NCBI GenBank assembly: GCA_938084835.1
Contig: CALKER010000005.1
Span: 62,001 to 126,000 of the forward strand
From: an uncultured Thermoguttaceae bacterium
Lineage (GTDB): Bacteria > Planctomycetota > Planctomycetia > Pirellulales > Thermoguttaceae
Direction of reading: 5' to 3'
DNA: 64,000 nucleotides
The notes beneath the pieces were generated by a model. It saw only the letters and a list, made by a program, of their open reading frames with translations, was not told the DNA's origin and did not search any database. Below, piece by piece: positions 577-21,241 of this stretch (its first letter is position 1; every line of letters begins with the position of its first letter). The translations under genes were made by a program, and so were the position numbers.

Positions 577-2106
577 CGGAAGAAGCTCGGTCGTGATAGA
601 AACTTCTTTACTACCACATCTTGCCCCAAGACTTATCCGGGGACAGACGCGACTTTGCGACGGCAACCTTCTTGGCACCAGCCGCGTTACCTGCCTACGC
701 AGTTCTCCAATGGGGAGCCCGCGGGGCGTGAATCTTCCGTTTAAAAATCGCGCTAACCGAGCCCGTGATTATTGCTCGGCGAATATCCCTATACCACGCC
801 GCGGGCCAAAAAAGTGGATAAGGCGATTCCTTTCTCAAGCCATTTTTCTCCAACTACTAATTCCAAAATTTGCTCGCACCCTTAATCCCAAAATTTGCTC
901 GCATTTTGGTAATGCGGCCGGCCGGAATGTCGGTTGTGTCGATACAGACTCCCAGCGGAAATGTTACAATTAATCATCATCTTAGTAGTGTACGTTGCAC
1001 AAAGCGATTATGATCCGCAATTTGGATCCAAGTGAATCCACAGATACTTCTCAATTTGATGCCCATTTGGACTGGGTCCCGCGGGGTTCACGACTCCCCC
1101 GAAGAAATCACTGTAAGTTATCGGCCTTACTTCGGGCGCAGGCCTGATAACGCCCCCGGAGCGAGACGGCGGTAGCTTTACTCGGGAATCGCCCTCAATT
1201 AGCGTAGGAAGTAAGGTGTACCGTAGGTGGTGAGGCCCTCGGGAAGGGGAACGCCGCTGGAAAGGGAGCCGAATGCCAAGCGAATCTCCAGGGGTTGAGG
1301 CCCCCGGCGGAATGGATAAGGGGTTGATTAATTTCTCGGACAAGACCTTTCCGCCAAGACCTTATTAAGTGCGTCAGATATGGTACTGGACGACATTTGC
1401 TTGCTTGTGTCCTAACACGGGCAGGTTGGTATAGGTCATTTTGCGTTGTTGCGGAAGATAGAAATCCGCTATTGAGCAAACCATTCAGAGCGACATTTGC
1501 CAATTCGGACAGTAACAATTGCGTCAGTATGTTCGCATTTAGGGGCCTTGGTTACCATCTGATTGGACAAGGTTAAGTCCTTGGCTCGGTAGCCCATTTA
1601 GCCTTCGCCCGGTGCTTCTCGAACTCGATGTCCGAAGATTTTCCAATTAAAAGGCACAACAAAACAACATTCAGGGGACGCGTCCGATTGTCCCGGTGGG
1701 CGGACGGCGGAAACATTAAGGTGGAGTGCACCCCGCTTGCCAACATCCCTTCCCTACCCCCACGAATTGAGTGGCATAGAACCCTACCACCTTGAGGCAA
1801 AACATTGAGACCTTTGGGCAATCGACGTCGTTAAGATTTGTCCGTAGTTGTCCACGGCTGCCTGCAACCGCTTGACTAGCCGGACGGGTGTATTTCGTGA
1901 CGGGAAATTCCCCAGGAACGGTACGAGCTGCGAACTTTTTCGGAACGCAATAGTGAAGGCTCCGAACTCGGTTTGCCCGCCGGAGAATGGATTCTTTCCT
2001 AAACATTGCCTGCTGCAAAGGCCCGGCCGGCATAGGGAGGGATCAGTCGGGCGAGGATTTCCATGGCAACGGTGGTTTCCGCCCAAATAGTTATGGGGAA
2101 AGTTCG
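577..2106. other. 1.5 kb spacer between trpC and the giant repeat gene
   Basis: I find no convincing gene here. Several overlapping open frames of 60-156 codons exist on both strands, but none has a recognisable motif, a good ribosome site or a sensible amino-acid make-up, and they overlap one another. The only structure I see is a short direct repeat at 863-903. The frame of the downstream giant gene is open back to 1987, but the added residues look non-protein-like. Confidence 0.55.
863..903. repeat. Two direct copies of a 16-bp A/T-rich word, 25 bp apart
   Basis: CCAAAATTTGCTCGCA occurs at 863-878 and again at 888-903 without mismatch. The core AAAATTT is symmetric but the full word is not a palindrome. 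It sits in the non-coding spacer, about 300 bp upstream of trpC on the trpC (minus) strand. It could be a regulator-binding pair or chance; nothing else supports a role. Confidence 0.6.
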
Positions 2107-5100
2107 ATGAAGAGATTCGGTCGTTTTGCTTCCGTGCTGGCTGCCTTGGGGCTGTCGAAAACTTTTTTTGGAAGCTTCGGCATGGAAGAAAAGCAGGTTT
2201 GGGCCTCCGTAAGGCGCGAATCCTCTTCGCTTTTTGGGAGAAAGAGGATGCCATTCCTCACCGCCTGGGCACGCAGATATGTTTGGCGATTGGTGGCAGG
2301 AGCTGTCCTGGGGACGTGGGCGGCGAAGGCGGTGGTGGTCAATTCTTTCTCCGACGTCGGCTGGCCTTTGTGGGATGGGGTTGTTTTTGCGCAGGAGACC
2401 GCGGCAGCCTCCGGGCCGGTCGAGCAGGCACCGCCACCCGCGGAGCCACCGCCACCACAAACGCCGGGAGAACAACCGCCCCCAAGTGCGGAAACAAAAC
2501 CGGAATCGTCACCCTCCGAAAGAATCCTTCCGCCTGAAGCCCTCCGACTTGAGGAATTCACGCGGGCCGAAATCGTGGATCAGTTGAAACTTTCCTCTCG
2601 GCAGCAAGCTGAAATCCGCCGCCTTGTGAGCGAGTTTCGTTCTAAAGCCGAGGGGGCCGATCCCGACACTCAAAGTCAGTTGGCGCGGCAGTACCTCAGC
2701 CAAGTACTTTCCGCCCTTACGTCAGACCAACGGCAGGCGTTTGAAGCAGGTCGACCGGTACCGCGACTACGATTCCAATTCCGCTTTCAGCGGTGGGAGC
2801 ATGTGCTGGAGTGGTTGGCAGAGCAGGCGGGTCTTTCGCTGGTGCTCGATGCTCCTCCACCGGGAACATTTAACTACACCGATACTCGGGAGTATACGCC
2901 CACAGAGGCCATTGATCTTGTTAACAGCATTTTGTTGACCAAGGGATACGCACTCATCCGCCGCGATCAAATGTTGGTGCTGGTGTCTCTTCGCGGCGGA
3001 ATTCCCGAGGGGCTTGTGCCGTGGGTGACGCTCGAACAGGCCCAGCGGATGGGTGCCTACGACTTGGTAACAGTAAGTTTTAGCGTGGGAAGGCGGGATG
3101 CGTCGCAGGTAGCCGAGGCCATAAAACCACTTGTGGGGCCTTTCGGTCGCGTTTTGCCGATCCCTGCCACCCGTCAGGTAGTGGTCACCGATCGGGCCGG
3201 ACTGATGGCCACCATCGATAAGGTCATTCAGGCACTTCCGGAACCTAGTCCTCCTCGGCAGGAACCACCACCTCGAGAGCCGGAACGTCAGGAGCTGCGC
3301 ATCTATCCCCTTGGGGCTGTGGATCCGACAGCCGTCATGAACGTCCTTCGGGAACTTTTCTACGGCGCTCGGATTGTGCATGATCCCAAACTCAATCAAC
3401 TCAATGTGGTAGCCACGCCAAGTCAGCACAACGGGATCGAAAGTGTTCTGAAACGGTTGGAATCTCCGGATGCCCCGGAGCGAATGCCGCGGCTAGAGGT
3501 TTATGCTGTGCCTGAGGGGCGGGACTTAAACGAGCTGGCCAACAGTCTTCAGCTTGTAGCCCCGCAAGCAAAAATTCGGCCGGATTCGGAGACCAGTCGG
3601 CTTATCGTTTGGGCTTCGCCGGCAGAGCACTCGGTGATCCGGGCCAGCTTAGAAAAGCTCGAGGAGGCTCCCGGCGCTTTAGGTACCCCTCAGGTTGAGA
3701 CCTACCGGCTGAGCCGAAGCGACGCGCGGATGCTCAGCTACATCCTGGAAAAACTGGTGCCAAAAGCAAAAGTAAGTTACGACTACTACGGACGCAACCT
3801 TGTTGTGTACGCCACCCCGGCCGACCAGGCCGTAGTACGAAGCCTGATTGAACAAATCGAACCGCAGGCGGTGACTCCCGGCAATGTGGAAGTACGCGTT
3901 TACACTTTGCGGCGGATCAACCCCAGTAGCCTGGTAAAAATGCTGGAGGAGGCATTACCCACCGCAAAATTTTCCGCCGACGATGCCTTGCGACGACTCA
4001 CTGTGGTAGCGCCGGCAGCCATTCAGGTGGAAGTGGAAAGAGCCATTCGCGAGGCCGATTCCGCACCGGAGGCCGAGGCCGAACCTAAGCTGCGGGCTTA
4101 CTCCATGGCCCAATTTGCTGGCGACACGACGGCCTTTCAAACACTGGTGAATTCACTCCAGCAGCTTGTTCCTCAGGCCAAGATCACTCCCGACGCGCGT
4201 CGGGGGCAAATTCTTGTGTATGCTACAGAGGAAGACCATAAACGGGTGGTCGAAACCCTCGCCCAGTGGGCCAAAGAAATCCAACCGATTGAAGGCTCGC
4301 TGGAGGTGTACGTGCTTTCTCCGGAAGAGCGGGCCCGCTTTCTGTCGCTTCTATCGAATCTAGCCAACGAGCTCCCTGGGGTGCGGGTACTGCCGGAAGC
4401 AGCGGGGGGTAGCGTGGCGGTGTGGGCACGGCCTCATGAGCATCAAATAATTCGGGAAATCCTCAGTCAGCTGCGCCAGGCGGAGGCAGAAGGTGGTGGT
4501 CGCATCCTGCGGAGTTATCCGCTTTCGGTGATAGAGCTTTCCGCGGCCCAGGAAGCAGTGAAGCTTCTTTTGCCGGGGGTCCAAGTGGTTCCCGATCCCG
4601 TTGGGCGGCGGCTGCTCATCTGGGCCCGGCAAGATGAACATCTGACCATCACTCGCACTTTGGAAGAAATCGACAGGGCAGCACCCCAGGAAACACAACC
4701 GCGTTTTGAGACTTATCCGGTGCGAGGGGTCGCAGCGGAGTCGTTGTTGCTGACCCTTCGCCAGCTTGTGCCGGGGGCGCAGGTGACACTGGATAGCTCC
4801 GGCCGAAAAATCGTGGCTTGGGGCACCCCCGCCGAGCATGTCAAAATTCGCGCCGCCTTGGCCCAATTAGGGCAAGGAACTTCCCCCGACGAGGCCCCCG
4901 AGCTTGTTGTCTATCCGCTTGGTGGTTTGGCTTCAAGCCAGGTTTTGCCCCTGCTTCAGTCGCTTGTGCCGGATGCTCAGCTAAGTGTTGACGCCCAGGC
5001 CAATAGCCTCCTCGCTGTAGCCCAGAAGCAGGACCACGAAACAATTCGCCGCGTGTTGGACCGGCTGGTGGAAGCGCGACGCGATTTGGGTGGGGCGGAG

Positions 5101-8100
5101 CTTCGGTATTATCCGTACCGCGTACCTCCCTCGGCGGGTCTGCTCGAGATCATGGGCAAGCTTGCTCCCTCGGCCCAAATCACACAGGACAAAGAGAACC
5201 GGCGTCTTATCGTTGTAGCCTCGCCCGAGGATCATGCTGTAATCGATCAAATGCTGCGGGACTACCAGGAGAAAACCGCTCCGGCCAGCGATCGACAGCT
5301 TATGATTTATCAACTGTCACCCCTGGAGCGAAAGCGGTTGGAATCACTGCTGCCTCAGTTGCAAAGCCAGTTGCCGGATCTTCAGCTTCTCCCGGAAACG
5401 GTCCCCGGCGAGGTGGCTATTTGGGCACGCCCGGACGAGCACCGCTTGCTGGGCGAGATTTTAGCCCAGTTGCGTCGCCCAACCCAATTGGACCGACCTT
5501 ACGTGCTGATTGTTCATCCACTCCGCGCGGCTGAGCCCAAAAGCGTGGGAGAGATGCTGCAGAAGCTTTTTCCCGAAGCTCAAGTGGTGCTGGATGCGCG
5601 TGCCCGTCGGGTGATGATCTGGGCACCGGAGGCGGCAGAAGGGCAAATCCGGCGGGTATTGCAGGAGCTTGATGCCGGCTCCCCTGGCCAGTGGCAGGAA
5701 CAGCTTCGTGTTTATCCAGTGACAAAAAGCGATGTGCAAGTCGCTCTTCAGCTCCTTCGCGAGCGCGTGCCGGAAGCACAGATCACGGCCGATTCCAAGG
5801 CGGGATCGCTTGTCGTCTGGGCTACTCAAGCCGACCACGAGGAAATCAGTAAGCTGCTTGATCAAATGGAAAAAGGTGTGGACGAAAAGCTTCGGCCGCG
5901 GGTGGAAGTGTACCCGGCAGGCCGGTTCGATTTGGCGGCCCTTACTACCTTACTGCGGAGTTTGGTTCCTGAAGCTCGGCTTGCCGTAGATCCCAAAACG
6001 GGCGGACTTGCTGTGTTGGCTACGCCCCAAGATCACGAGCTTGTGCGTAAGACGCTTGAGCAGCTCGGTCGTGAGGATCTTGCGGGAGAGCCGGAAGCGC
6101 GAACCTATTCCCTCTCTGGCGGGGGTAGTGTTTGGGGAGTAATCGGCATACTTTCCACGGTTTTCCCGATGATTCGGGTCACCGTGGGGACACAACCAAA
6201 TCAAATCTTGGTCTGGGCGCGCCCGGAAGAACACGAGCTAGTGGCCAAAGTGGTGGCCGAGCTCCAGAAAGAAGAACCCGACGAACTTGCTCCGCGTCTT
6301 GAGGTTTATGCGTTGGAAGGAACAAATGCCAGCGAGGCAGGGCGGATCCTGCGTCAGCTTGCACCGGAAGCCGTTTTCACCACCGGCCCTGATCCGCAGC
6401 AGCTTCTGGTATGGGCTCGGCCGAGAGATCATCAGAAGATTCGCCAAGCGTTGCAGCAGTGGCTCGAGGCGGTACGCAAGCCTGAGGTCCTTCCCGAACT
6501 TGCTGTTTACACCTTGCGCTACCTCAGTGGCTACGGGGCGATGCAGGCGCTACGGGCGGTGGTTCCGGAAGCCCAGTTCTCCTTAGGTGCTCACGACAAA
6601 CAGCTGGTGGTGCTGGCACGTCCGGGGCAGCATGAGCGCGTGGCCGAAGCCCTGGAAAAAATGGACGTCCCACCCCCCAGCCAAGGGGAATTACGCGTGT
6701 ACACCCTCGAGGGAATGAGTGCCACACGGGCCTTTTATGCGACTCGCTTGTTGCGGGAGGCCGTGCCGGAAGCTACCTTCGCCTTGGGAGCCGACCCAAC
6801 CCAGCTTCTGGTCTGGGGGAGTCCTGAGGTGCATGAGAAGGTGGGGGGACTTGTTGACACAATGTTCCAGCGACCCCCAGAGGAAAAAGCCCCGCGAGCA
6901 GAGATTTATCGGCTTCGGCATGTGACGGCTGCGAGTGCCTCGCAGGTATTACGGGTGGCAGTACCGGATGCGACTTTAACTCCAGAACCAGCAGATCCGT
7001 ACAAGCTGACTGTGTGGGCTTCTCCCCAGGAACACGAGCTTATCACCCAGGTGTTGGCTCAGATCGATGTAGCGGAGGCCCCCGAGGGAAACTTCGTAGC
7101 CCGTACCTACACGCTGGAGGCAGTCTCACCGTACTATGCCGTGCCCTTTTTGACCCGCATGTTTCCTGCAGCGCAAGTCATGTACACAACCGATCCTCAA
7201 CAAATCCTAGTTTGGGCAAAAGCGGAGGAACATGCCAAGATCGAGGAGGCGCTGGCCCAGCTGGCCCCCTCGGACAGCGATCGCCCGACGGTGGCCACGT
7301 ATGAGCTTCGGTCATTAGATTCGCGAACGGCTACGAATTTGATCCAGTCAGCGGTGCCGGGAGCCAAAATCACCACCAGCCCCGACGGTCGCAAACTTTT
7401 GATCTACGCGCGCCAGCCGGATCACACACGGATTGCAGAACTGCTCCGAACTGCCGATACCACTCCTGCCGAAGGAGCTTTGCGGATGGAAGTGTACACC
7501 CTTCGGGGGGTAGGAAATGCTTATACGGCGTTGCTGCTTCTTCGCGAAGCTTTTCCTCAAGCCCGTTTTTCCGTTGGGACAAATATGCAGCAGCTTGTTG
7601 TTTACGCCTCGCCAGCGGAGCATGAACAAATCGCGCAGGCGATCGAGCGTTTGGCAGAGCTCACCCGAAATGAACAACCGGAAATGGTGGTCTACGATGT
7701 GGGAACAGCAGATGCTTCGCGACTGGCAGGGATGCTAGAGACGGCCTTTCCCGGCACTCGCTTTGTCCCCGCCGGTGAGCCAGGAAAATTAATCGCCTGG
7801 GCTCCCCGAACTGATCATGAGCTGATTGCTCAGGCATTGGAAAAGCTTAAGGCAGAAACCTGGGGACCGGAGAATCGTGTCCTCAGCGTTTATCCCCTGC
7901 GCCGGGCTGATGCCCAGACACTGATCCAAGTGCTTACTCCAGTGGTTCAGGGGAATGCACAGTTTGTCGTCGATACCACGCGCAACAGCCTTGTGGTATG
8001 GGCGGATCGGCGATATCAGGAAGCGATCCGGCGGACCGTTGAGGATTATTTGGCAGCGGTGGCGACCGTGGATGACCTCGAGCCTCGGGTCTATCGCTTC

Positions 8101-10293
8101 CGCTACGCCGATCCCAGCGCTGCCGTCACTGTAGTGCGGGCCCTTGCACCGGATGCCCAAATTAGTTACGACTGGGCTAACCAAGCGCTTGTTGTCAGCG
8201 CCACAGCTGAGGACCATCGCACAATCGAGCTGGCCTTAAGCCAACTTGACCGCGCGGATGTTGGCGGTCTCCGGCCCGTTTTTCGCGTTTACCCCCTCCC
8301 CGGGGCTGAACGCGAACAAATTTTCACAAATCTGCGGCAGCTCTTCCGCGGGGATCCTTCTGTGCAGCTGGCCCAGGATGAATCGTCGGCCTCGCTTTTG
8401 GTTCTGGCTCCGGAAGGCAAGCAGGAGCAAATCGCGCAGATCATCGCGGAGATTGAGCTGGCCAGTCGGCAGGGTGGCGGAGTCACCGTGCGAAGTTATG
8501 CCTTGGGAGAAACGGATCCGCAGGCGGCTCTCACCTTGGTGCGAAATCTTGCCCAACAACGCGGTTTTCGGGCCGACATCTCCCTCGATACGCGAAGCAA
8601 CGCCTTAGTCGTGGTGGCCCGAGAGGAATATCACCCTCAGATTGCCCAGGCATTGGAGCAAATTCGTCCTCCCCAGCGTCAGCTTGAAATTCTTCAGCTT
8701 GAAGAACTTGATCCTTTTTCAGCCCAAACGGCTATTCGTCACCTATTTGTGGGCGAAGCTTTTCCCCCGCAAGTGGAGGTCGATTATGCTTCCCAGCAAT
8801 TGCTAGTGCAGGCAACGCCAGAGCAACATCGGAAAATCCGCGAACTTTTGGGAAAAATGGGGGAGACTCGCTTAGCTGTGGTAAACGCTTTAAGGGGCGG
8901 AACTCCCCGGGTTATTCCTTTTGAGGGAAATGCTCTCGAACTGCTGCAGGAGATCGAGCGGGTATGGTCCCGGCTTCGACCTAATCCTCTTCGGGTGATT
9001 GTCTCCGAGTCGCCATCCACCGCGCCCTCCTCTTCAGGTGGAGGTTCCCGGACTAGCCCGAGTGGCATGAGCGTCTCTCCGCCTGGAAATGATTCGCGCC
9101 CGACAAGAAATAGTCCCGAGTCTGAGCCGGCCTTTAAACCAGAGAAAGCCCCTACTGAAGGCGGAAGTGCGGCAAGCACTCCCAGTTTGCCGGCACAGCG
9201 TTTGGCTAGCGACTCAAAAGGCGGATTAGCTGTCCTTGCAAATTTCCTTGCTAACCGTGTGGACGCATGGGTCAGTGGTGATTCTGGCTTCCCTAATCCT
9301 TCGCGGGAGGCAGGCACCCTCGCAGGCCAAGTCGCAACAACTAGCGTAAGCCGGTGGGAAGTCGAAGTGGTTCCAGAGGTAAAGGATGAGGGCGTACCAT
9401 CGCCGGAGGAGGATTCGTCTACAGCTGAGGAGACAACATCTGAGCGCAAGGCAGCAGGTCCCGAGGCCACACAAAGTCCGCAAGGGCTAGGAGAGGCGGG
9501 GGCCAAGGAAGTTTCCTCCGCGGAAGAAACCACGGTGGCTTCCGCAGGTCAGGACCGCGGAGAGATATCGCCGGTGTATATCCTTGTTCAGGATGGCTCT
9601 ATCACCGTTGTGTCTGAAGATGCAGAGGCGGCTTCCGAGCTTGAATCCATCCTCCGCATGTTGACCGCACGGACAGGTGTGTCCGCGCGGAGCATTACGG
9701 TCTACGAACTGCGACATGCCAATGCCTCAACAGTGGCGGAGCTTGTGGAGGATTTCCTCCGCCGTTCTAGCTGGGGGTTTCGACGATCCTTGGGTGGTCT
9801 GGTGATCATCCCCGACGATCGCCAAAACACGCTTCTGGTGCAGGGGACACGTGCGGATCGCGCTGTAATTGAAGAGTTACTTCGGGTTCTGGACACGCCC
9901 CAAGTTCCGCAGGCCATTCGTGCCAATCAACCGCGAATTGTGCCGTTGCGAAACATGGATGCCTCCCGCGCGGAGGAGGTAGTCCGCAGCGTGTTTCGCG
10001 TTCTTTTCACACCGCCGCCACCTCGCTACACGCCTTGGGGAACCCCTCGGCCAAGTAACCCAGGGATCCTGACTCCGCAACTTGCGGTGGATCAAACAAC
10101 GAACAGTTTAATCGTCAGCGGACCGGCGTCCGTTGTGGACGAAATCGTCGAATTCGTCCAAAGATTGGATCAGACGGCGGCCGAGGACCCCTCCCGCCAA
10201 CTTATGATCATCCCGTTAAAGAAGCTAAACGCCACTCAAGTGGAGCGGGCCGTCCGCGACTTGGTTCCTCGTTCGTACTGGCGGCGATACTAA
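2107..10293 (+). CDS. Giant membrane-anchored protein with about 31 tandem secretin N-type domains and no secretin barrel
   Basis: The product is about 2,728 residues from ATG 2107, which has GGGGAAAG just upstream; the frame is open to 1987 but the extra residues look non-coding. Near residues 48-78 is a hydrophobic segment (signal peptide or anchor), then a Pro-rich stretch, a helical region, and an N0/STN-like domain at about 220-295. One N-type module follows, then about 28 tandem copies of a ~66-residue module from residue ~395 to ~2255. Each copy has the pattern vYpL-x(9)-Lr-lvP-Aq-x(4)-D-x(5)-LvvWA-p-EH-x-I-x(3)-L-x-l, as in the secretin N1 KH-like fold. A Ser/Pro/Glu-rich linker (about 2300-2485) and two and a half more modules end the protein. 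The outer-membrane secretin domain is absent. It lies 2.2 kb upstream of gspE on the same strand, so it may serve that secretion machine. Function is inferred. Confidence 0.85.
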   Translation: MKRFGRFASVLAALGLSKTFFGSFGMEEKQVWASVRRESSSLFGRKRMPFLTAWARRYVWRLVAGAVLGTWAAKAVVVNSFSDVGWPLWDGVVFAQETAAASGPVEQAPPPAEPPPPQTPGEQPPPSAETKPESSPSERILPPEALRLEEFTRAEIVDQLKLSSRQQAEIRRLVSEFRSKAEGADPDTQSQLARQYLSQVLSALTSDQRQAFEAGRPVPRLRFQFRFQRWEHVLEWLAEQAGLSLVLDAPPPGTFNYTDTREYTPTEAIDLVNSILLTKGYALIRRDQMLVLVSLRGGIPEGLVPWVTLEQAQRMGAYDLVTVSFSVGRRDASQVAEAIKPLVGPFGRVLPIPATRQVVVTDRAGLMATIDKVIQALPEPSPPRQEPPPREPERQELRIYPLGAVDPTAVMNVLRELFYGARIVHDPKLNQLNVVATPSQHNGIESVLKRLESPDAPERMPRLEVYAVPEGRDLNELANSLQLVAPQAKIRPDSETSRLIVWASPAEHSVIRASLEKLEEAPGALGTPQVETYRLSRSDARMLSYILEKLVPKAKVSYDYYGRNLVVYATPADQAVVRSLIEQIEPQAVTPGNVEVRVYTLRRINPSSLVKMLEEALPTAKFSADDALRRLTVVAPAAIQVEVERAIREADSAPEAEAEPKLRAYSMAQFAGDTTAFQTLVNSLQQLVPQAKITPDARRGQILVYATEEDHKRVVETLAQWAKEIQPIEGSLEVYVLSPEERARFLSLLSNLANELPGVRVLPEAAGGSVAVWARPHEHQIIREILSQLRQAEAEGGGRILRSYPLSVIELSAAQEAVKLLLPGVQVVPDPVGRRLLIWARQDEHLTITRTLEEIDRAAPQETQPRFETYPVRGVAAESLLLTLRQLVPGAQVTLDSSGRKIVAWGTPAEHVKIRAALAQLGQGTSPDEAPELVVYPLGGLASSQVLPLLQSLVPDAQLSVDAQANSLLAVAQKQDHETIRRVLDRLVEARRDLGGAELRYYPYRVPPSAGLLEIMGKLAPSAQITQDKENRRLIVVASPEDHAVIDQMLRDYQEKTAPASDRQLMIYQLSPLERKRLESLLPQLQSQLPDLQLLPETVPGEVAIWARPDEHRLLGEILAQLRRPTQLDRPYVLIVHPLRAAEPKSVGEMLQKLFPEAQVVLDARARRVMIWAPEAAEGQIRRVLQELDAGSPGQWQEQLRVYPVTKSDVQVALQLLRERVPEAQITADSKAGSLVVWATQADHEEISKLLDQMEKGVDEKLRPRVEVYPAGRFDLAALTTLLRSLVPEARLAVDPKTGGLAVLATPQDHELVRKTLEQLGREDLAGEPEARTYSLSGGGSVWGVIGILSTVFPMIRVTVGTQPNQILVWARPEEHELVAKVVAELQKEEPDELAPRLEVYALEGTNASEAGRILRQLAPEAVFTTGPDPQQLLVWARPRDHQKIRQALQQWLEAVRKPEVLPELAVYTLRYLSGYGAMQALRAVVPEAQFSLGAHDKQLVVLARPGQHERVAEALEKMDVPPPSQGELRVYTLEGMSATRAFYATRLLREAVPEATFALGADPTQLLVWGSPEVHEKVGGLVDTMFQRPPEEKAPRAEIYRLRHVTAASASQVLRVAVPDATLTPEPADPYKLTVWASPQEHELITQVLAQIDVAEAPEGNFVARTYTLEAVSPYYAVPFLTRMFPAAQVMYTTDPQQILVWAKAEEHAKIEEALAQLAPSDSDRPTVATYELRSLDSRTATNLIQSAVPGAKITTSPDGRKLLIYARQPDHTRIAELLRTADTTPAEGALRMEVYTLRGVGNAYTALLLLREAFPQARFSVGTNMQQLVVYASPAEHEQIAQAIERLAELTRNEQPEMVVYDVGTADASRLAGMLETAFPGTRFVPAGEPGKLIAWAPRTDHELIAQALEKLKAETWGPENRVLSVYPLRRADAQTLIQVLTPVVQGNAQFVVDTTRNSLVVWADRRYQEAIRRTVEDYLAAVATVDDLEPRVYRFRYADPSAAVTVVRALAPDAQISYDWANQALVVSATAEDHRTIELALSQLDRADVGGLRPVFRVYPLPGAEREQIFTNLRQLFRGDPSVQLAQDESSASLLVLAPEGKQEQIAQIIAEIELASRQGGGVTVRSYALGETDPQAALTLVRNLAQQRGFRADISLDTRSNALVVVAREEYHPQIAQALEQIRPPQRQLEILQLEELDPFSAQTAIRHLFVGEAFPPQVEVDYASQQLLVQATPEQHRKIRELLGKMGETRLAVVNALRGGTPRVIPFEGNALELLQEIERVWSRLRPNPLRVIVSESPSTAPSSSGGGSRTSPSGMSVSPPGNDSRPTRNSPESEPAFKPEKAPTEGGSAASTPSLPAQRLASDSKGGLAVLANFLANRVDAWVSGDSGFPNPSREAGTLAGQVATTSVSRWEVEVVPEVKDEGVPSPEEDSSTAEETTSERKAAGPEATQSPQGLGEAGAKEVSSAEETTVASAGQDRGEISPVYILVQDGSITVVSEDAEAASELESILRMLTARTGVSARSITVYELRHANASTVAELVEDFLRRSSWGFRRSLGGLVIIPDDRQNTLLVQGTRADRAVIEELLRVLDTPQVPQAIRANQPRIVPLRNMDASRAEEVVRSVFRVLFTPPPPRYTPWGTPRPSNPGILTPQLAVDQTTNSLIVSGPASVVDEIVEFVQRLDQTAAEDPSRQLMIIPLKKLNATQVERAVRDLVPRSYWRRY

Positions 10294-12473: not shown

Positions 12474-14162
12474 ATGGCTTCGATGAAAACTGCTCAACGT
12501 GGATGGTCCCTTTCGGCCGAGGAACTTGCGCGCGCCCGCGAGTGCTTGGAGCAAGAAGGGACCCTTGAGTCCTTTGCTTTGGAGATGGGGTTTGACAGCG
12601 AAGAGGAGGCGTGGCGGGCGGTGGGCGACGCGCTTAGCATGGACTACCTGGACTTGAGCGCCGCCCGGATTGATTTTTCGCTCCTTCAGGATTTTCCGGT
12701 TCGCCTCATTCATCGGCACAACGTATTTCCCATCGCTCTGGCCGGTGGAACGCTGGTTCTGGCTACAGCCAATCCTTTTGATCTTCATGCCATCGATGCG
12801 GTTGGGGCGGCGGTGGGGCGAAGCGTGTTGCCGGTGCTGGTAACCCCCAAAGAGTTGCAGAAACTGATCAAAAGTCGGCTCGGGGTGGGGGCAGAAACGA
12901 TAAACGATCTTTTGGCGCAGGAGGATGATTCGTCTCGGGTGGAGTTGCTCGACGAACCGGAGTGGGATGCCGCGGAGGCGGCGGAAGCTCAGGAAGCTTC
13001 CGTGGTTCGTCTTGTCAACGAAATTCTTGTAGAGGCTATCGAAGCGCGCGCAAGCGACATCCACCTCGAATGCCAGGCTTCGGGCATGAAAATTCGTTAT
13101 CGTATCGACGGAGTGCTTCAAACTCAGCCCACACCCCCTCAGATCAATCGCTTCAAAAATGCCATTATTAGCCGCCTGAAAATCATGGCCCGGCTTAATA
13201 TCGCGGAGAAGCGTTTACCTCAGGATGGGCGCATCAAGTTAAAAGTCAACGGACGCGAGGTGGATATCCGTGTTTCCGTCATTCCCATGTTGCATGGCGA
13301 AGGGATTGTTATGCGAATCCTCGACAAAGACCGCATGCAATTTAACCTTCGTGGTTTGGGAATGGAAGAGGATGTTTACGAACAATTTCAGCAGTTGATC
13401 CGCCTACCACACGGGATCATCTTGGTCACTGGCCCTACTGGTTCAGGAAAAACCACCACACTGTATAGTGCCCTCAACGAGATAAAAAGCGAAGCCACGA
13501 AAATTATCACCACGGAAGATCCGATTGAGTACCATCTCGAGGGGATCAACCAAATCCAAGTGCACCCAAAGGTGGGGCTGACGTTTGCGGCCAGCTTGCG
13601 GAGTATCCTCCGGCATGACCCAGATGTGATTCTTGTGGGAGAGATACGTGACTTGGAAACGGCGGAGAATGCCGTACAGGCATCGCTGACGGGTCATTTG
13701 GTGTTCAGTACTTTGCACACCAACGATGCGGCCAGTGCCTTCATGCGGCTTACAGACATGGGTGTAGAGCCCTTTTTGGTCTCCAGCACCGTAGAAGGGG
13801 TGATGGCCCAGCGGCTGGTCCGCACGTTGTGCACACATTGTCGCGAGCCCTATTATCCTTCGGAAGAAGAGCTACCGGAAGATTTCCCGCGACCTCAAGG
13901 TCGAAGGTTGCCTTTGCTCTATCGGGCGGTGGGGTGTCGACATTGTCGCAATACCGGATACAGAGGGAGAATTGGCATTTTCGAGCTTTTGGTCACTAAC
14001 GACGAAATCCGCCGCCTGGTAGGGGAGCGTACCCCAACCCACGTCATTAAAAAGGTGGCAATGGACGCGGGAATGCGGACTCTTCGCCAGGACGGCTGGC
14101 TCAAGGTGCTCCGTGGTGTCACCAGCATTGAGGAAGTCCTTCGCGTAACTAAGGGAGATTGA
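12474..14162 (+). CDS. gspE: Type II secretion/type IV pilus assembly ATPase GspE (PilB family)
   Basis: This is the cytoplasmic hexameric ATPase that powers pseudopilus assembly. The 562-residue length suits the family. The start at ATG 12474 has AAGGA 7 nt upstream. Residues 1-145 form the N-terminal MshEN/GspE-N region that binds the L/M platform. The catalytic domain has Walker A GPTGSGKT (320-327), the Asp box around ITTEDPIEY, Walker B DVILVGEIRD (384-393) and the His box SLTGHLVFSTLHTND. The zinc-binding tetracysteine is present as CTHC (453/456) and CRHC (488/491), typical of assembly rather than retraction ATPases. It is the first gene of the secretion cluster and is followed after 125 bp by gspF. 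The identification is firm. Whether the machine is best called T2SS or pilus-like depends on its partners, which look T2SS-type (GspG, GspK). Confidence 0.95.
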   Translation: MASMKTAQRGWSLSAEELARARECLEQEGTLESFALEMGFDSEEEAWRAVGDALSMDYLDLSAARIDFSLLQDFPVRLIHRHNVFPIALAGGTLVLATANPFDLHAIDAVGAAVGRSVLPVLVTPKELQKLIKSRLGVGAETINDLLAQEDDSSRVELLDEPEWDAAEAAEAQEASVVRLVNEILVEAIEARASDIHLECQASGMKIRYRIDGVLQTQPTPPQINRFKNAIISRLKIMARLNIAEKRLPQDGRIKLKVNGREVDIRVSVIPMLHGEGIVMRILDKDRMQFNLRGLGMEEDVYEQFQQLIRLPHGIILVTGPTGSGKTTTLYSALNEIKSEATKIITTEDPIEYHLEGINQIQVHPKVGLTFAASLRSILRHDPDVILVGEIRDLETAENAVQASLTGHLVFSTLHTNDAASAFMRLTDMGVEPFLVSSTVEGVMAQRLVRTLCTHCREPYYPSEEELPEDFPRPQGRRLPLLYRAVGCRHCRNTGYRGRIGIFELLVTNDEIRRLVGERTPTHVIKKVAMDAGMRTLRQDGWLKVLRGVTSIEEVLRVTKGD

Positions 14163-14287: not shown

Positions 14288-15493
14288 ATGCCTGAATTCG
14301 TCTACGTAGCCCGCTCAGCGAGCGGCGAGGATGTAAGCGGCACCATCGCTGCAGGAAGTGCGCGGGAAGCCGTGGCAGTTCTCTCCGACCGCTCGCTCTT
14401 TCCCCTTCGGGTGGAGCCGGTCCGTCAACAGTTCTTTTGGCCGATGAGGCGTCGGGTGACGTTGTCCCAGCTGGCCAGCACCTTGGCGCAGTTGGCCGAC
14501 CTGTTGCAAAACGGAGTGCCGCTTCTGACCTCCTTATCGCTCCTGGCGGAACAGGCGGTTCACCCGGAACTCCGGCGGGTGTTGGCCAACGTCCGCGACA
14601 AAGTGGCAGAGGGCACCGCCATTGATCAAGCGTTGGCAAGTCATCCCCATGTGTTTGGGGAACTTGTGGTCAGCATGGTCCGAGCAGGGGCTGAAGGGGC
14701 CTTTTTGGAAGAGGCTTTGAAGCGAACTGCTAACTTTTTGGAGCTGCAGGAAGAAATCCGGTCCCGCGTCAAAGGGGCGATGTTTTATCCCGCCTTTTTG
14801 GCGATTGTTGGAACCGTGATCACCGTGGCGCTTATTGTATTTTTCGTTCCCCGCTTTGCTGAGCTGTTCGATAAGCTCGAGCGCGAAGGCGGCGGGCTAC
14901 CGTTAGCAACGGTTGTTCTGTTGCATCTGAGCGACTTTCTCGGTCGTTATGGCCTGCTGGTGGGTGTGGGTATTGCCGCCGCGGTTGTTGGACTGCGGCA
15001 GATGGCCAAAACACCCCGGGGTCAAGAGTGGTGCGACCGGCTAAAGTTGCAGTTGCCGATATTTGGCCCAATATTTCTCAGCTATGCTCTCTCCCGATTT
15101 TGCCGCGTGTTGGGGACGCTGCTTCGCAACGGTGTTCCCCTCCTAAAAGCACTGGAGATCAGCAGTCAGTCAGCGGGTAATAGGGTGTTGGAAAAGGCAA
15201 TACGTGACTCGGCGGAGAATGTATCCTCTGGTGAAACGTTGTCTCGCCCCCTAGCCCAATGTGGAATTATCCCCAAGCCTGTGATGGCGATGATCACCGT
15301 GGCCGAACAGGCCAATAATCTTGAAGAAGTGCTTGTGGACATCGCGGAGTCGGTAGAGCGCCGCATGGCCCGGCAGATTGATCTTATGGTGCGGATGGTG
15401 GAGCCAATTATGCTCCTTGTGATGGGTGTGTTGATTATGTTCGTGTTGGTGGCACTTTTGTTACCTATCGTGGAGATGAGTACGTCACTCTAA
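14288..15493 (+). CDS. gspF: Type II secretion inner-membrane platform protein GspF
   Basis: GspF is the polytopic platform protein that couples the ATPase to pseudopilin insertion. The 401-residue product begins with the usual MPEFVYVA-type strand and the GTIAAGSAREAV helix. Two T2SSF helical domains are visible at about residues 65-190 and 270-390, each with an LLxxGVPLLxxL motif (LLQNGVPLLTSL, LLRNGVPLLKAL). Hydrophobic segments lie near 160-185 (FLAIVGTVITVALIVFFVP), 215-235 and 370-395. The C-terminus LLLPIVEMSTSL is close to the family's ending. I see no strong ribosome site at ATG 14288, but the N-terminal sequence matches the family from its first residue. It follows gspE in the expected order. 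Confidence 0.93.
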   Translation: MPEFVYVARSASGEDVSGTIAAGSAREAVAVLSDRSLFPLRVEPVRQQFFWPMRRRVTLSQLASTLAQLADLLQNGVPLLTSLSLLAEQAVHPELRRVLANVRDKVAEGTAIDQALASHPHVFGELVVSMVRAGAEGAFLEEALKRTANFLELQEEIRSRVKGAMFYPAFLAIVGTVITVALIVFFVPRFAELFDKLEREGGGLPLATVVLLHLSDFLGRYGLLVGVGIAAAVVGLRQMAKTPRGQEWCDRLKLQLPIFGPIFLSYALSRFCRVLGTLLRNGVPLLKALEISSQSAGNRVLEKAIRDSAENVSSGETLSRPLAQCGIIPKPVMAMITVAEQANNLEEVLVDIAESVERRMARQIDLMVRMVEPIMLLVMGVLIMFVLVALLLPIVEMSTSL

Positions 15494-15830: not shown

Positions 15831-15886
15831 GATCACAGTTTGCGGGACCAATCGGTCCTGATATGTAAGCGTGAAGGATGAGAATG

Positions 15887-15894
15887 AAGGAGGG
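15887..15894 (+). promoter_or_regulatory. Strong Shine-Dalgarno site that fixes the gspG start
   Basis: AAGGAGGG lies 7 nt before ATG 15902. It overlaps the upstream in-frame ATGs at 15878 and 15884, which have no such site. I therefore start gspG at 15902. Confidence 0.75.
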
Positions 15895-15901
15895 TGTTTC
15901 C

Positions 15902-16528
15902 ATGACTTGCGTCCCAAAATATTCTGGCAAACGCAAGCTTTCCCGAAGATCCGCATTTACCTTAATGGAGATGTTGATTGTTTTGGGAATCCTGGTGATG
16001 CTGATTGCCCTTGCGGCACCTCGTTTCTTGGGTGCGCAAAAGAAGGCGGACATCCAGACGGCGAAGACTCAGATCGGGCTTTTTCGCGGGGCTCTCGAGC
16101 GCTATGCTTTGGATATGAAAACGTTTCCCACAACAGAGGAGGGGCTTGAGGCACTCATTTCGCCTCCGGCGGGTTCGGACACTGGTGCGGGGGAGGGGGC
16201 GGCAACGGCAGCCTCGGGGAAGTGGGATGGGCCGTATTTGAACGTCAGTCAAATTCCGCTTGATCCGTGGGGGAATCCGTATCAGTACCGTTACCCACCG
16301 GAGCGCGGGACAACCGACTTCCCGGATATTTGGTCTTTCGGTCCCGATGGGCAAGACAACACCGAGGATGACATCTGCAGTTGGGGCTCGCCGGGGCAAG
16401 GGAGAGCCCAGGAGTCACCCGGTGCTGGCACATTCGATCGCCCACTGCCATCGGGCGGACCACCCATGCCGCCGGCCGGAGGACTCACTCCCCCGGGGCC
16501 TCCGCCAACGCGGCCGGCCAATATTTAG
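15902..16528 (+). CDS. gspG: Major pseudopilin GspG
   Basis: GspG is the main subunit of the type II secretion pseudopilus. With the start at ATG 15902 the product has 208 residues. A positive leader (KRKLSRRS) precedes the prepilin peptidase site A18|F19 and the helix FTLMEMLIVLGILVMLIA, with Glu at +5. The residue before the cut is Ala, not the usual Gly. The GspG-type core follows: DIQTAKTQIGLFRGALERYA, FPTTEEGLEALI, then IPLDPWGNPYQYRYP and SFGPDGQDNTEDDICSW, which match the calcium-site loop of the family. Unlike most GspG proteins, the chain continues about 48 residues past this point as a Pro/Gly-rich tail. It is followed by the minor pseudopilin genes. The identification is firm. Confidence 0.93.
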   Translation: MTCVPKYSGKRKLSRRSAFTLMEMLIVLGILVMLIALAAPRFLGAQKKADIQTAKTQIGLFRGALERYALDMKTFPTTEEGLEALISPPAGSDTGAGEGAATAASGKWDGPYLNVSQIPLDPWGNPYQYRYPPERGTTDFPDIWSFGPDGQDNTEDDICSWGSPGQGRAQESPGAGTFDRPLPSGGPPMPPAGGLTPPGPPPTRPANI

Positions 16529-16751
16529 ACGACTCTCCAGCGCCGAGCCATCGCTATACGCGATCGGCCCCTTGGGAGAGCTCCGGGTTGCTATCCAACA
16601 AAATTCAAGCTCCCGGTTGATTTCTAACCACAGTGTGCTCACGTTCCGGGTGGAATTTTGATGCTTCCGACAGAATGGGTCGGGCAAAACGCACAGATGG
16701 CTCCCCGAAGTTTTCTATGCTGCCAGCGCACTGCGATCCTTGAAGGTTGTG

Positions 16752-17573
16752 ATGGTAGCTAAGCGACCGGCCTACAGTTTAGTGGAAATGATCATTGTGG
16801 TGGCGATTATCGCTGCCTTAATGGCCCTTGCCTGGCCATCGTTTGCAAGGCCGGCGGGTCGGTGGCAACTTGTTTACGTGGCGAAGCAGCTTCGAGGGGA
16901 ACTGGCTCACGCCCGCCTGGAGGCCATTCGCACGGGAAAGCCGTGGCAGTTTTGCTACGAACAGGGCGGTCGGCGATATTTTATCTCACCATTGGCCGCG
17001 GAGGAATTCGTATCTTGGGAGGGAACGGCCGGTGCTGGGACCGCGACCAGGTTGGAAGTGCTCAATTCGGGAATGGAGTACCCTCGCGGAGTTGCGGAAT
17101 TAGGGGTTAACGCCAACGATGTGGCTGAGGGGGAGGCGGTTAAGGATTTGCCATTAGGCATTTTCTTCGTAGCTGGGGCGGACCTTGGCCAAGGGTTTCG
17201 CGGCCGCGGGGCACCGGCGGAGGTAACGGCGGGTACCTTTGACGCCCTTTTAGGAGATCAGGAGGAAGGCCCCGCTGTCATACTCGAGGAATCAAGTCCG
17301 GCGGGAAGCGATGGCCTGGCAACTGCGGTAGGAGAAAATTTCGCCAACACACGTGGTGGTGGGGGATGGCGGCGGATTGTGTTTTTGCCCACGGGGCGGA
17401 CGGCCTTCAATCAGTCTTTCTCCCTTTACGCTGCCGATGGAACTTCCCTAACCTTACTGGTGCGGGCGGTTACCGGCACGGCTGTGATAGGTCAACTGCG
17501 CAGAGCCGGGCCGGGGGTACACGACTCCCTTTTCCGCCAGAACACCTTCCAGCCAACCCGGGCGGAACCATAA
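16752..17573 (+). CDS. gspH: Minor pseudopilin, GspH-like
   Basis: The product of about 273 residues starts at ATG 16752, with GAAGG 5 nt upstream; an in-frame TTG at 16740 is a weaker choice. The leader is very short (MVAKRPA), followed by YSLVEMIIVVAIIAALMALA. Tyr is at +1, Glu at +5, and Ala again precedes the cut site. The region after the helix (LVYVAKQLRGELAHARLEAIRTGKP) is the GspH pattern, where the helix leads to a beta-sheet domain. The rest has little recognisable sequence and is longer than typical GspH (~170-200). Its position between gspG and gspI supports the call. It probably sits at the pseudopilus tip. Confidence 0.8.
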   Translation: MVAKRPAYSLVEMIIVVAIIAALMALAWPSFARPAGRWQLVYVAKQLRGELAHARLEAIRTGKPWQFCYEQGGRRYFISPLAAEEFVSWEGTAGAGTATRLEVLNSGMEYPRGVAELGVNANDVAEGEAVKDLPLGIFFVAGADLGQGFRGRGAPAEVTAGTFDALLGDQEEGPAVILEESSPAGSDGLATAVGENFANTRGGGGWRRIVFLPTGRTAFNQSFSLYAADGTSLTLLVRAVTGTAVIGQLRRAGPGVHDSLFRQNTFQPTRAEP

Positions 17574-17576
17574 TCC

Positions 17577-18179
17577 ATGCCCCGGTTAAAACACCCTGGT
17601 TTTTCCCTTCTTGAAGTCCTGGTAGCCGTGGCGGTCCTGGCAGCTTCCGCAGTGCTGCTTGCTCAGATTGCCAGCTTTTCTCGGCAGAATATCGAGAAGC
17701 TTCGCCATCGAACCCAGGCTCAGTTGTTGTGCCAAAGTAAGTTGAGCGAGATCGTCTGCGGAGCCCAACCCCTCGAAGCGGTAAGTCGGCAAGAATTTGC
17801 CGATTTGCCCGGCTGGTATTTTTCGGTCGAAGTAACCCCGTTGGAGACCGAGGGGCTTGTGGCGGTCATTGTGACCACCTGGCTTGAGGCAGGCACTGCG
17901 GGGACTGACCCCGGTATGGCACGACCGGCACTGGCCGAATTTACGTTGATGCGGTGGATTCGCGATCCGAATCGGGCCGCAGTGAGCCGGTGGAACAACC
18001 TGAATTGGGAGGCAGGAAGCAGGTCGGAACGGGCCGCCTCCCCTACGTCGGCTTCGCGGTCGGAGAATCGAACTTCCGGTTCGCAAACGGGAATGTCCAC
18101 CACGTCAGGAAGTCCGTCGGGCCGCCGCGGAATGGGCTTCGGCGGTTGGCGGCGCTCGGCAAGCCGCAGCCGAAATTGA
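17577..18179 (+). CDS. gspI: Minor pseudopilin, GspI-like
   Basis: The 200-residue product starts at ATG 17577, just 3 nt after the gspH stop, which suggests translational coupling. The leader MPRLKHPG precedes FSLLEVLVAVAVLAASAVLL; here the residue before the cut is the normal Gly and Glu is at +5. The stretch ENIEKLRHRTQAQLLCQSKL is like the GspI helix that enters the tip complex with GspJ and GspK (the visible text is QNIEKLRHRTQAQLLCQSKL). The last ~60 residues are unusual: a Ser/Arg/Gly-rich tail with no predicted fold. The call rests on the N-terminus and gene order. Confidence 0.8.
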   Translation: MPRLKHPGFSLLEVLVAVAVLAASAVLLAQIASFSRQNIEKLRHRTQAQLLCQSKLSEIVCGAQPLEAVSRQEFADLPGWYFSVEVTPLETEGLVAVIVTTWLEAGTAGTDPGMARPALAEFTLMRWIRDPNRAAVSRWNNLNWEAGSRSERAASPTSASRSENRTSGSQTGMSTTSGSPSGRRGMGFGGWRRSASRSRN

Positions 18180-18473: not shown

Positions 18474-19688
18474 ATGGGTGCGAGATCCACCCTTATGACA
18501 CCTGATTGGCATCCCGCGCGAAAATCAATGTCCATGGGACCGAAACCCAAGCCACATGGGCGAGGTCGGTGGGCTTTCACTCTGCTTGAACTATTGATTG
18601 CCTCCTTCCTCCTTGGTTTTGTTGTGCTTGCGGTGTGGAGTTTGGCAGGGGTTTACGGTCGCCTTTTAGAAGCAACTTTTCACCGCGTCGAGCAGGCCCA
18701 GGTGGTGCGGGCCGTTGTGGAGCAGCTCCGGGCAGATCTTCGACATGCCATTCAAGATCCGGTGGCCGGCATCAGGCAACCGCGGCCTGGTGGGGCTCCT
18801 GTGCGGCGCTTCGGCCTTTGGGGGACGGCGCGTGACCTTCGGCTCGATGTGCTTCAACCGGTGGATTCCTTGGCCGGGGTTGGGATCTCGGAAGCGGTGG
18901 ACGAAACGTTGGCAGCGAGCGGTTTGGAGGCGCGTCGCGCCCCGGAGCTGTGCACCGTTTACTACCGCTTTATCCCCTGGGAGGAGCCGGAGGATGAACT
19001 GCCGCCGACTTCCGAGCCACCAAGCTCCAACGGGAGTCAATACCCTCGTTTGCCGGGGTTACTCCGCTGGGAGAAGGACTTCGAAACCCCGGAAGCACCT
19101 CGGTCCAGCCGGTCGGGCAGTGGTCCTTTTGAAGATGCGTCCACGGACCTGTTCGGCACCGGTCAAGCCGGTGTTTCGTCCTCACGAATGTCCCCAGGGG
19201 AAAGTTCGCTCCCGGAGCTCTACGCGCGGCTGGAAGCAGCTTTCGGGCCGAAAGTTTTATACCTGCCGGAGGTGGTCGAGTTTGAACTTCGCTATTTTGA
19301 CGGGCAGGCGTGGACCTCATCCTGGGATAGCCTTTCGCGGCAGGCGCTGCCTGTGGCAATTGAAGCGCGCTTTCGCATCGATGTGACCATGGGAGAGGGC
19401 CGGGGTAAGCTGATCTTCCCGGTAGGGGAGGGAGCTCAATCCCACTTGGGCGGCCAAATCGATGGGGTCGAGTCCGGCCGAGGTGGGGGTGAGCTTTTCC
19501 GCATAGTGATCGAGATTCCGGGGTCACCCCACTTTCAGGGGCCGAGGGCTCCGGTAAGGCCGGAGACAGACCAGCCGAGAGTGGGGCCGAGGCCCCCATT
19601 CTTGCCTCGCCCGATTCCGTTGGTTCGCCCCATAGAACCCACCCGGCCTCTTGCCCCCTCCGACCAATGGATGAGGGTTTCGCCGTAA
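18474..19688 (+). CDS. gspJ: Minor pseudopilin, GspJ-like, with a long C-terminal extension
   Basis: The open frame gives 404 residues, against about 200 for common GspJ. The prepilin helix is WAFTLLELLIASFLLGFVVL (Ala before the cut, Glu at +5), followed by the GspJ pattern VVRAVVEQLRADLRHAI. The true start is uncertain: ATGs at 18474, 18495, 18528 and 18534 are all in frame and none has a clear ribosome site. The middle has the family-like segment VEFELRYFDGQAWTSSWDS and ALPVAIEARFRIDV. Ser/Pro-rich inserts and a Pro/Arg-rich tail account for the extra length. The stop codon overlaps the gspK start as TAATG. A 294-bp gap without a gene precedes it. Confidence 0.8.
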   Translation: MGARSTLMTPDWHPARKSMSMGPKPKPHGRGRWAFTLLELLIASFLLGFVVLAVWSLAGVYGRLLEATFHRVEQAQVVRAVVEQLRADLRHAIQDPVAGIRQPRPGGAPVRRFGLWGTARDLRLDVLQPVDSLAGVGISEAVDETLAASGLEARRAPELCTVYYRFIPWEEPEDELPPTSEPPSSNGSQYPRLPGLLRWEKDFETPEAPRSSRSGSGPFEDASTDLFGTGQAGVSSSRMSPGESSLPELYARLEAAFGPKVLYLPEVVEFELRYFDGQAWTSSWDSLSRQALPVAIEARFRIDVTMGEGRGKLIFPVGEGAQSHLGGQIDGVESGRGGGELFRIVIEIPGSPHFQGPRAPVRPETDQPRVGPRPPFLPRPIPLVRPIEPTRPLAPSDQWMRVSP

Positions 19689-21241
19689 TGACTGAGTATT
19701 CTTCAAAATCCGGGTGGCACCGTGGACCGCGATTTCACGGTGCTTACCGTAGCGATCGGCCGCGGTGCGGCGGCATGATTCTTTTTATCGTGATGGTTAT
19801 TGTCGGCTTGCTTGGCATGGCCGGCGTGACAATTGTGCTCAATCTGTCCACTGAGAATCGTGCCTTCTTTTACGAAAATGATCATCTTCAGTTGGAGCAG
19901 GTCCTTCTGTCCGGTGTGGAGTATCTCAAGGCGTTTTGCGAAAAAGCGCCAGCTGAGCAGCTGGCTCTTGGTGGCCCGGATGATAATCCCGCGCGGTTTT
20001 CTCGTGTAACTGTGTCGCTGCCATCCTCGGGGGAAACGATCGGGATCTTTCACATAGTAGCGCCCTCATCGGGCGTAGGCGACGGGCAGGAAGTTCGCCA
20101 ATACGGCTTGGAAGCCGAAACCGCCAAATTGTGCCTGCGGGATCTGATTCTCTGGGAGGCAAGCGGACTTGTCTCGGCCCGCGAGGCCCTCATGCAGCTT
20201 CCGGGAATGACGGAAGCCGTTGCCGACGCGATTCTTGACTGGATTGATCCCGACGAAAATCGCCGGGGTTTTGGAGCGGAGGCCGACGTTTACGCGGCTC
20301 GGCGGCTCCCTTACCGCCCGCGAAACGACTTGCCCGTAGCACTCGAGGAACTGCTGCTTGTGCGAGGAGTGGAAAGGCACCTACTTCTAGGTGGTTTCGG
20401 CACATCCACAAGAGGCGGTGACGCGTGGGCACGAGGAAGTCCGCTCCAGCCGGTTGAGGAAGCCACCTGGGCCCGCTTCATAACCTTTTTTAGCGGCGAA
20501 AGGAATATCACGAGCGAAGGAAAACCCCGGATCAATCTGAATGACCCGGACTTAAGCCGCCTTCATGACCGACTCACGCAGGAGTTTCCCGCCGAACTTG
20601 CCGACTTTGTGGTGTTCCTGCGTCAGTTTGGCCCCATTTCCGAGGGGACCACTCCTGCCGAAGAAAATCCTCAGGCGGCGCCGCGAGAATTACCGCCGGA
20701 TTTCTCGCGACCGGCGCGTTTCGCATTGCGCAGTATCTTCGATGTTTTGCAAGTGGCGGTGGAGGTAGAAACACCCGCTCGGGACCGAGTGATTGTTCAA
20801 AGCCCGCTAACGGCCGATCCTGACACTTTGCGAGAGCTGTTGCCACGATGGGTGGACATGACCAGTACCACGGGGGACCGCGTTGTTTACGGGCGAATTG
20901 ATATCCTGCGTGCTCCCCGGCAGGTGCTTCTGGCCATTCCCGGGATGGACAGCGCGATTGCGGATCGCATCCTCACCCTGCGTCGTCAGGAGGGGCTGGT
21001 AGAGGGGAGGGGTGGTTCGGCGCTGGCTCGTTTATACGCGGAAGGCATCCTGTCGGCCCAGCAACTGCGACAGCTTGGACCATTTGTCACGACATGGTCC
21101 GATGTGTGGACGGCCGACATAGTGGCCGAAGCTGTCGGGGGTTCTCCGCTGCGGCTTCGGGCCCAGGTGACCGTGGATGCTACCATAGTTCCCGCCCGGC
21201 AAATATATTGGAAGCATATGGGCACTACGGCCGGTCCATAA
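19688..21241 (+). CDS. gspK: Pseudopilus tip protein GspK
   Basis: GspK caps the tip of the pseudopilus together with I and J. I start it at ATG 19688, which overlaps the gspJ stop as TAATG and gives 517 residues; an in-frame ATG at 19667 is possible. The membrane helix is MILFIVMVIVGLLGMAGVTI. Two helix-hairpin-helix-like segments typical of GspK are visible: LMQLPGMTEAVADAILDWID, followed by LPVALEELLLVRGV, and later ILRAPRQVLLAIPGMDSAI. RINLNDPDLSRL also fits the family. As usual for GspK, the +5 Glu of other pseudopilins is not present. The gene is longer than typical GspK (~330). Confidence 0.88.
   Translation: MTEYSSKSGWHRGPRFHGAYRSDRPRCGGMILFIVMVIVGLLGMAGVTIVLNLSTENRAFFYENDHLQLEQVLLSGVEYLKAFCEKAPAEQLALGGPDDNPARFSRVTVSLPSSGETIGIFHIVAPSSGVGDGQEVRQYGLEAETAKLCLRDLILWEASGLVSAREALMQLPGMTEAVADAILDWIDPDENRRGFGAEADVYAARRLPYRPRNDLPVALEELLLVRGVERHLLLGGFGTSTRGGDAWARGSPLQPVEEATWARFITFFSGERNITSEGKPRINLNDPDLSRLHDRLTQEFPAELADFVVFLRQFGPISEGTTPAEENPQAAPRELPPDFSRPARFALRSIFDVLQVAVEVETPARDRVIVQSPLTADPDTLRELLPRWVDMTSTTGDRVVYGRIDILRAPRQVLLAIPGMDSAIADRILTLRRQEGLVEGRGGSALARLYAEGILSAQQLRQLGPFVTTWSDVWTADIVAEAVGGSPLRLRAQVTVDATIVPARQIYWKHMGTTAGP

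Follow-up and report, generated by a model that had tools for sequence, protein, structure and literature searches.

What does a giant protein built of secretin N-type modules, and carrying no secretin barrel, do beside a planctomycete type II secretion (T2SS) gene cluster? The question is raised by a 64,000-nucleotide stretch of DNA from an uncultured Thermoguttaceae bacterium (hereafter the window, whose coordinates are used unless another locus is named). Our best reading of the sequences is that the gene would encode the N0 half of a GspD-type secretin, with the barrel encoded by a separate gene.

The giant protein and its gene neighbourhood

The putative N0-bearing, barrel-less giant half of GspD lies at 1987..10293 (+) and comprises 2,768 aa from its first ATG. 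The initial annotation had placed it at 2107..10293 with about 2,730 residues; an in-frame ATG is indeed present at 2107, but the first one lies 40 codons upstream, and the start codon is uncertain. All features of the protein are on the same (+) strand. Near the N-terminus, a hydrophobic segment read from the sequence by eye (residues 99-118; 2281..2340) is likely an export signal or membrane anchor, and is followed by an apparently helical segment, also recognized by eye and without a Pfam match (residues 187-255; 2545..2751); a similar segment is seen by eye in some relatives, and twice in one of them (L070). The N0 domain (residues 260-351; 2764..3039), assigned from GspD structure and profile matches, leads into module 1, which is N1-like (residues 365-422; 3079..3252; internal hidden Markov model (HMM) and GspD N0-N1 match), and then into tandem modules 2-29 (residues 437-2294; 3295..8868), delimited by the internal HMM with a period of 66.5 residues (s.d. 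5.2). A low-complexity linker (8869..9696), judged disordered by eye and lacking any match to the module HMM, appears by eye to split one further module, with a beta-alpha part before it and a beta-beta-alpha part after it. The chain ends with modules 30-31 (residues 2571-2731; 9697..10179), defined by the internal HMM and a GspD structure match, and with a terminal half module detected by the internal HMM (residues 2743-2762; 10213..10272).

Trained on the giant itself, the HMM recovers 31 full modules and a partial 32nd, with 0 matches in 200 residue-shuffled copies, and Pfam Secretin_N (PF03958) matches with 504.7 bits (E = 4e-155) spread over the protein. These results bear out the approximately 31 modules first noted and their arrangement as 1, 28 and 2.5. 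The N0-like domain proposed near the N-terminus also holds up: residues 274-419 (N0-N1) resemble solved GspD N0-N1 fragments (4e9j, E = 1.3e-4), as does a profile of seven relatives (E = 6e-5), and the Pfam GspD-N0 model is matched weakly by 6 of 7 family members (best E = 0.0021), the giant's own N0 segment scoring 15.6 bits against a cut-off of 27. At the other end, residues 2571-2732 resemble full GspD (5wln, E = 2.2e-8). The absence of a barrel is confirmed, as a Pfam search of the giant did not find PF00263 and an HMM built from the barrels of this genome detected no further one in the 64-kb window, whichever the frame (best score 4.5 bits, E = 2.6). The score of the giant against the GspD model TIGR02517 (315.9 bits, below the cut-off of 351.35) is what is expected for a GspD without its barrel. 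Membership of the PilQ family is not indicated (TIGR02515, 28.7 bits against a cut-off of 284.35; barrel also absent). Besides Secretin_N, Pfam revealed no credible binding domain in the giant; KH_DEAH11, Hemerythrin and other side matches were taken as chance or fold likeness. A barrel missed through a downstream frameshift was rejected, there being nothing in any window frame.

Downstream on the same strand lies a set of gsp genes: gspE (12474..14162; TIGR02533, 638.5 bits, cut-off 630.25), gspF (14288..15493; above the Pfam cut-off), gspG for the major pseudopilin (15878..16528; above the NCBIfam cut-off), genes for a gspH-like minor pseudopilin (16740..17573; above the Pfam cut-off) and a gspI-like minor pseudopilin (17577..18179; from position and an N-methylation motif), gspJ-like (18474..19688; below the Pfam cut-off), gspK (19667..21241; above the Pfam cut-off), and gspL-like (21284..22909) and gspM-like (22906..23829) genes, both below cut-off. 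With gspE-F-G-H-I-J-K-L-M following it, the giant holds the place of gspD.

Between the giant and gspE, and divergent to gspE, the window encodes an EF-hand protein (10778-11953, -); among 28 loci with sufficient flanking sequence, 19 have an ORF with two or more EF-hand motifs close to the upstream side of gspE. After gspM comes a protein of 183 aa that has a hydrophobic stretch at its N-terminus and no Pfam match (23854-24405, +), and a DUF1559 pilin-like protein with an N-methylation motif lies distant from the gsp cluster (45616-46689, +).

N0 and barrel genes in the genome, the order and the phylum

The initial annotation had also raised the idea of an unlinked secretin, which gains substance from barrel genes found separately in the same genome and, elsewhere, within the same clusters. 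PF00263 occurs in six proteins of the giant's own genome. Two are GspD-type barrel halves of 1,352 and 1,263 aa (TIGR02517, 369.2 and 352.2 bits, cut-off 351.35), in which N-type modules are present and N0 was not found; both lie away from the giant (C5:301k and C18). Another is PilQ-like (797 aa, with a weak N0 and scores below cut-off), and a pilus N-terminal domain like that of CpaC-type secretins is present in two more. The sixth is an odd protein of 1,397 aa with a secretin barrel and a single N-type module match that is not GspD-type (L022, 6329-10519). A second N0-bearing, barrel-less protein (contig C6; 1,410 aa, 6 modules) and a second gspE-M cluster (C17) bring the tally to two gspE-M clusters, two N0 halves and two GspD-type barrel halves. 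As the barrel halves are not adjacent to the giant, they are paired with N0 halves by count and not by place. A plasmid origin was also considered; the N0-N1 segment had no match in plasmid records.

Searching with an N0-N1 profile yielded 63 named loci, whose titles all name planctomycetes apart from one that reads only 'bacterium'. None of the 63 carries N0 and a barrel in one ORF, with 20 of the ORFs cut by the stretch end and one (L076) broken. A T2SS-kind gspE lies within the stretch in 14 of the 63 loci, downstream and on the same strand in 13, and a separate barrel gene in 6. PF00263 was annotated in none among the 120 matches listed, of 185, in a database search with the window's N0 region. 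Homologues of the gene were found beside gspE-M clusters in other planctomycetes, adjoining pseudopilus genes, and the outcomes named at the start as refuting (another fold, a missed barrel, homologues away from pseudopilus genes) were not seen, the fold being judged by sequence. That the giant is an isolated oddity is ruled out by these 63 related loci and by an N0-half match in 180 of the 296 genomes of the order.

GspD in the class is often encoded by two genes, an N0 half with 4-68 modules and a barrel half with 6-9 (L022 left out). Barrel-half matches at E = 1e-60 or better occur in 172 of the 296 genomes, and the two halves occur together in 167 genomes, N0 only in 13, barrel only in 5 and neither in 111; after five weak N0 matches are dropped, the counts are 166, 9, 6 and 115, respectively. 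Fisher P values for co-occurrence (3e-59 with all matches, 1e-62 without the weak ones) are overstated because the genomes are related. A T2SS-kind gspE, sorted by hand, was present in 41 of 60 genomes, the giant's own included. Among the 45 of these 60 genomes with listed N0 and barrel results, 33 have N0, barrel and gspE, 8 have none of them and 4 disagree (G022, G029, G046 and G057).

In eight genomes an N0 half, gspE-M and a barrel half share one cluster: G065, G037, G048, G258 (with the barrel half on the opposite strand), G210 and three genomes of family f21 (L215, L216 and L220). Of 16 barrel proteins scanned for N0, one cut duplicate and L022 were excluded (the latter not GspD-type), and the N0 profile matched none of the remaining 14 distinct GspD-type barrel halves. 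Separately, the barrel half of family f21 keeps a diverged N0-like domain in 6 of 6 loci (L215, L216, L217, L218, L219 and L220), which were chosen because the N0 profile matched them; the split is therefore not clean everywhere, and two N0 types occur in one T2SS cluster in this family. The pattern of sequences suggests that gspD may have been duplicated, one copy losing the barrel and the other losing N0 in some lineages.

In other classes of the phylum, Phycisphaerae by source names, the N0 profile matches frames of 3,109-5,073 aa. Nine of the 12 such frames listed above 3,000 aa were covered, and every one of the nine joins N0, an array of 30-51 modules and a barrel in one ORF; gspJ-M-like genes adjoin 5 of the 9 (20-63 bits, some weak). 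A database search with one barrel end returned PF03958 together with PF00263 in 120 of 120 matches listed of 571, several of them named Phycisphaerales or Phycisphaeraceae.

Array length and module evolution

Among planctomycete type II secretion genes, long arrays are a recurrent feature. The complete N0 halves form two size classes, a short one with 4-7 modules and a long one with 15-68 (counts of 15, 16, 17, 20, 23, 26, 27, 28, 31, 36 and 68, several loci being the same DNA under two names), and a half module, by HMM match, ends 42 of the 50 complete N0 halves. This end may be a joint or docking element to the barrel half. In a tree of GspE, 11 proteins encoded beside long halves and 11 beside short halves are split by a branch with support 100/98; the GspE of L076, a locus left unlabelled because the contig end truncates its N0 half, which is also split over two frames, falls with the long-half side. 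Short halves (4-7 modules) likewise stand beside gspE, so that not every T2SS requires a long array.

Comparison with congeners shows how arrays are kept and extended. All 31 modules of congener G002 pair one-to-one with those of the giant in the same order, the best pairs being 47-93% identical and the second best 25-51%, and another congener with 36 modules is mostly collinear, with modules added. Between giant and congener, dN is 0.231 over 2,643 codons, and as dS is saturated we claim no dN/dS ratio. At L205 (1392-17573, -), a frame of 5,394 aa holds 68 N-type modules and lacks a barrel; some of its modules are 84-93% identical to others three apart, indicating recent block duplication. 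In genus g94 of family f7, a barrel-less array has expanded through a repeat unit of ~235 residues (L234, 7070-17317; L235, 4008-11135), apparently as a separate event, and no gsp genes were detected in 20 kb at these two loci.

We counted the GspE split between long and short halves, and the use of a second repeat unit (~235 aa) to build a long array, as points in favour of our best reading. Counted against it were the lack of a GspC match, the distance of the genome's own barrel halves from the giant, the genomes with N0 only or barrel only, the N0-like domain kept by f21 barrel halves, the short halves beside gspE and the g94 loci without a gsp gene.

A proposed ring stack across the periplasm and its alternatives

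We know of no solved structure of such an array. Its likely fold was approached with a five-module profile, for which 100 of 399 candidate segments were picked, 99 of them entering alignment A3 (601 columns) and 90 the pruned A5. Of 21 matches to solved structures, the best 14 are secretins (8co1, E = 1.3e-15; 5wq7, 3.4e-14; 5wln, 2.7e-12; further GspDs) and the other 7 are weak, to TAL-effector repeats or a designed protein. Each alignment with a secretin extends over two to three N domains in succession (roughly 135-225 residues of the chain), in agreement with the N1 type first assigned to the modules. In solved secretins each N domain forms one ring, according to the available text of two reports (PMC5745081, PMC6882859), and this likeness leads us to infer that the modules form rings too. 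Axial stacking of such rings is favoured by the fused homologues, in which N0, 30-51 modules and the barrel belong to one chain.

The planctomycete periplasm is enlarged, and secretin rings have a height of 2.5-3 nm. We assign a probability of about two in three to the proposal that the giant is the inner-membrane-side N0 half of a two-part GspD, with its modules stacked as rings across this wide periplasm. The chain would be exported, and many copies (solved GspDs 8co1 and 5wq7 have 15 chains each) would line up so that each module makes one ring. N0 would face the inner-membrane platform, while at the C-terminal end, where the half module recurs, the giant would meet the barrel half; the pseudopilus or its substrate would move inside the stack. 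About 40 rings (N0, 31 modules and 8 of one barrel half) would then reach 100-120 nm at 2.5-3 nm each, and block duplications, by changing the module count, would adjust how far the stack extends, the count acting as a ruler. Only tentatively, and short of an even bet, do we extend this to a conduit of adjustable length, in which the barrel half would sit in the outer membrane and the N0 half, with as many as 68 modules, would reach the inner membrane, module number serving as the ruler for a wide and uneven periplasm.

The long linker could break a continuous ring stack. N0 normally binds GspC, as far as the accessible part of PMC6882859 describes; the GspC family (PF11356) gave no match in the giant's genome at E up to 1, where a diverged GspC may still exist, and N0 would accordingly have to meet GspL/M or another protein. 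These observations fit an arrangement in which one or a few copies of the giant string modules between the membranes as a tether, holding the barrel half near the platform and forming no rings. The low-complexity linker, the absence of a barrel from the giant chain, the broad spread in module number, from 4 to 68, and the missing usual bridge would suit such a thread. We nevertheless consider it unlikely, as the modules keep an N1-type sequence that aligns with ring-forming secretins over two to three domains, and in the fused homologues a single chain dictates that the copy number of the array must equal that of the barrel.

N domains bind substrates in some T2SS. The array could accordingly be a periplasmic surface that sorts or binds substrates, its diverse modules binding different cargo or wall polymers and its length a by-product of repeat duplication, and it is true that mean identity among modules within the giant is only 26%, yet the identity of each module is kept between congeners. 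However, long arrays have been built from different repeat units and congeners differ in length (31 versus 36 modules), which is easier to understand as selection on length, and only Secretin_N is credible as a domain in the protein; we regard this explanation as distinctly improbable. More improbable still would be a single chain closing into a pseudo-symmetric ring, with ~15 modules replacing 15 subunits and the giant making about two rings. The number 31 is close to 2 x 15 and the linkers between modules are short, but the long-class counts show no preference for multiples, and known tandem secretin N domains stack along the axis, according to the available text of PMC5745081 and PMC6882859. 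Although the giant chain ends inside a module, as might be seen if truncation had removed the barrel and left a decayed, functionless secretin, the same barrel-less half-module end recurs in 42 of 50 complete N0 halves and all 31 modules are kept in a congener at dN 0.23, so that decay is hardly credible; a pseudogene was ruled out by this congener conservation and recurrent end.

Against known systems, the two-part GspD reading stands as follows. The giant has in common with the GspD of the T2SS an N0, N1-type domains and a place in the gsp cluster, but it has 31 modules where GspD has three N1-type domains (N1-N3) and it lacks the barrel, which its separate partners carry above the NCBIfam cut-off. 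Thermus thermophilus PilQ likewise has extra N domains, forming six stacked rings in a 350 Å complex said, in the available text of PMC5745081, to cover most of the wide periplasm. PilQ, however, is a single gene with a barrel and six rings, compared with 31 modules plus N0. The nearest precedent is the split GspD of the mitochondrial T2SS of some protists, made of three small proteins that have a single N domain, or half of one, and lack N0 (PMC8134430, text available in part). As in the giant's genome, its barrel and Secretin_N parts are encoded by separate genes and GspC was not found; unlike it, the giant bacterial chain has N0, and such chains have up to dozens of modules. We found no description of such a two-gene, many-module secretin in the available portions of the open-licence PMC literature (for example, PMC3422733, PMC4827864 and PMC11131199).

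If correct, the reading would account for a split secretin being missed, as it can be, by GspD searches tied to the usual domain architecture. One search for planctomycete secretion proteins filtered its candidates by conserved domain architecture, a step that a split GspD might not pass; tomography has revealed crateriform structures, press-stud-like links from the outer to the cytoplasmic membrane (both from the accessible part of PMC5394234); such envelope-spanning complexes might be part of these structures. A split secretin with dozens of ring modules would also be the longest secretin known to us, and would bear on enzyme secretion in planctomycetes, whose periplasm is unusually wide. 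Genetic tools for planctomycetes are reported (PMC11958385). With its span of 4-68 modules, the family is a natural series of lengths in which to test how distance is measured by envelope machines, and the fused form in other classes and the split form here provide an evolutionary series for the division of a channel protein: the fused giant GspD-like proteins, from Phycisphaerae by source names, share N0 and 30-51 modules and keep the barrel in the same polypeptide.
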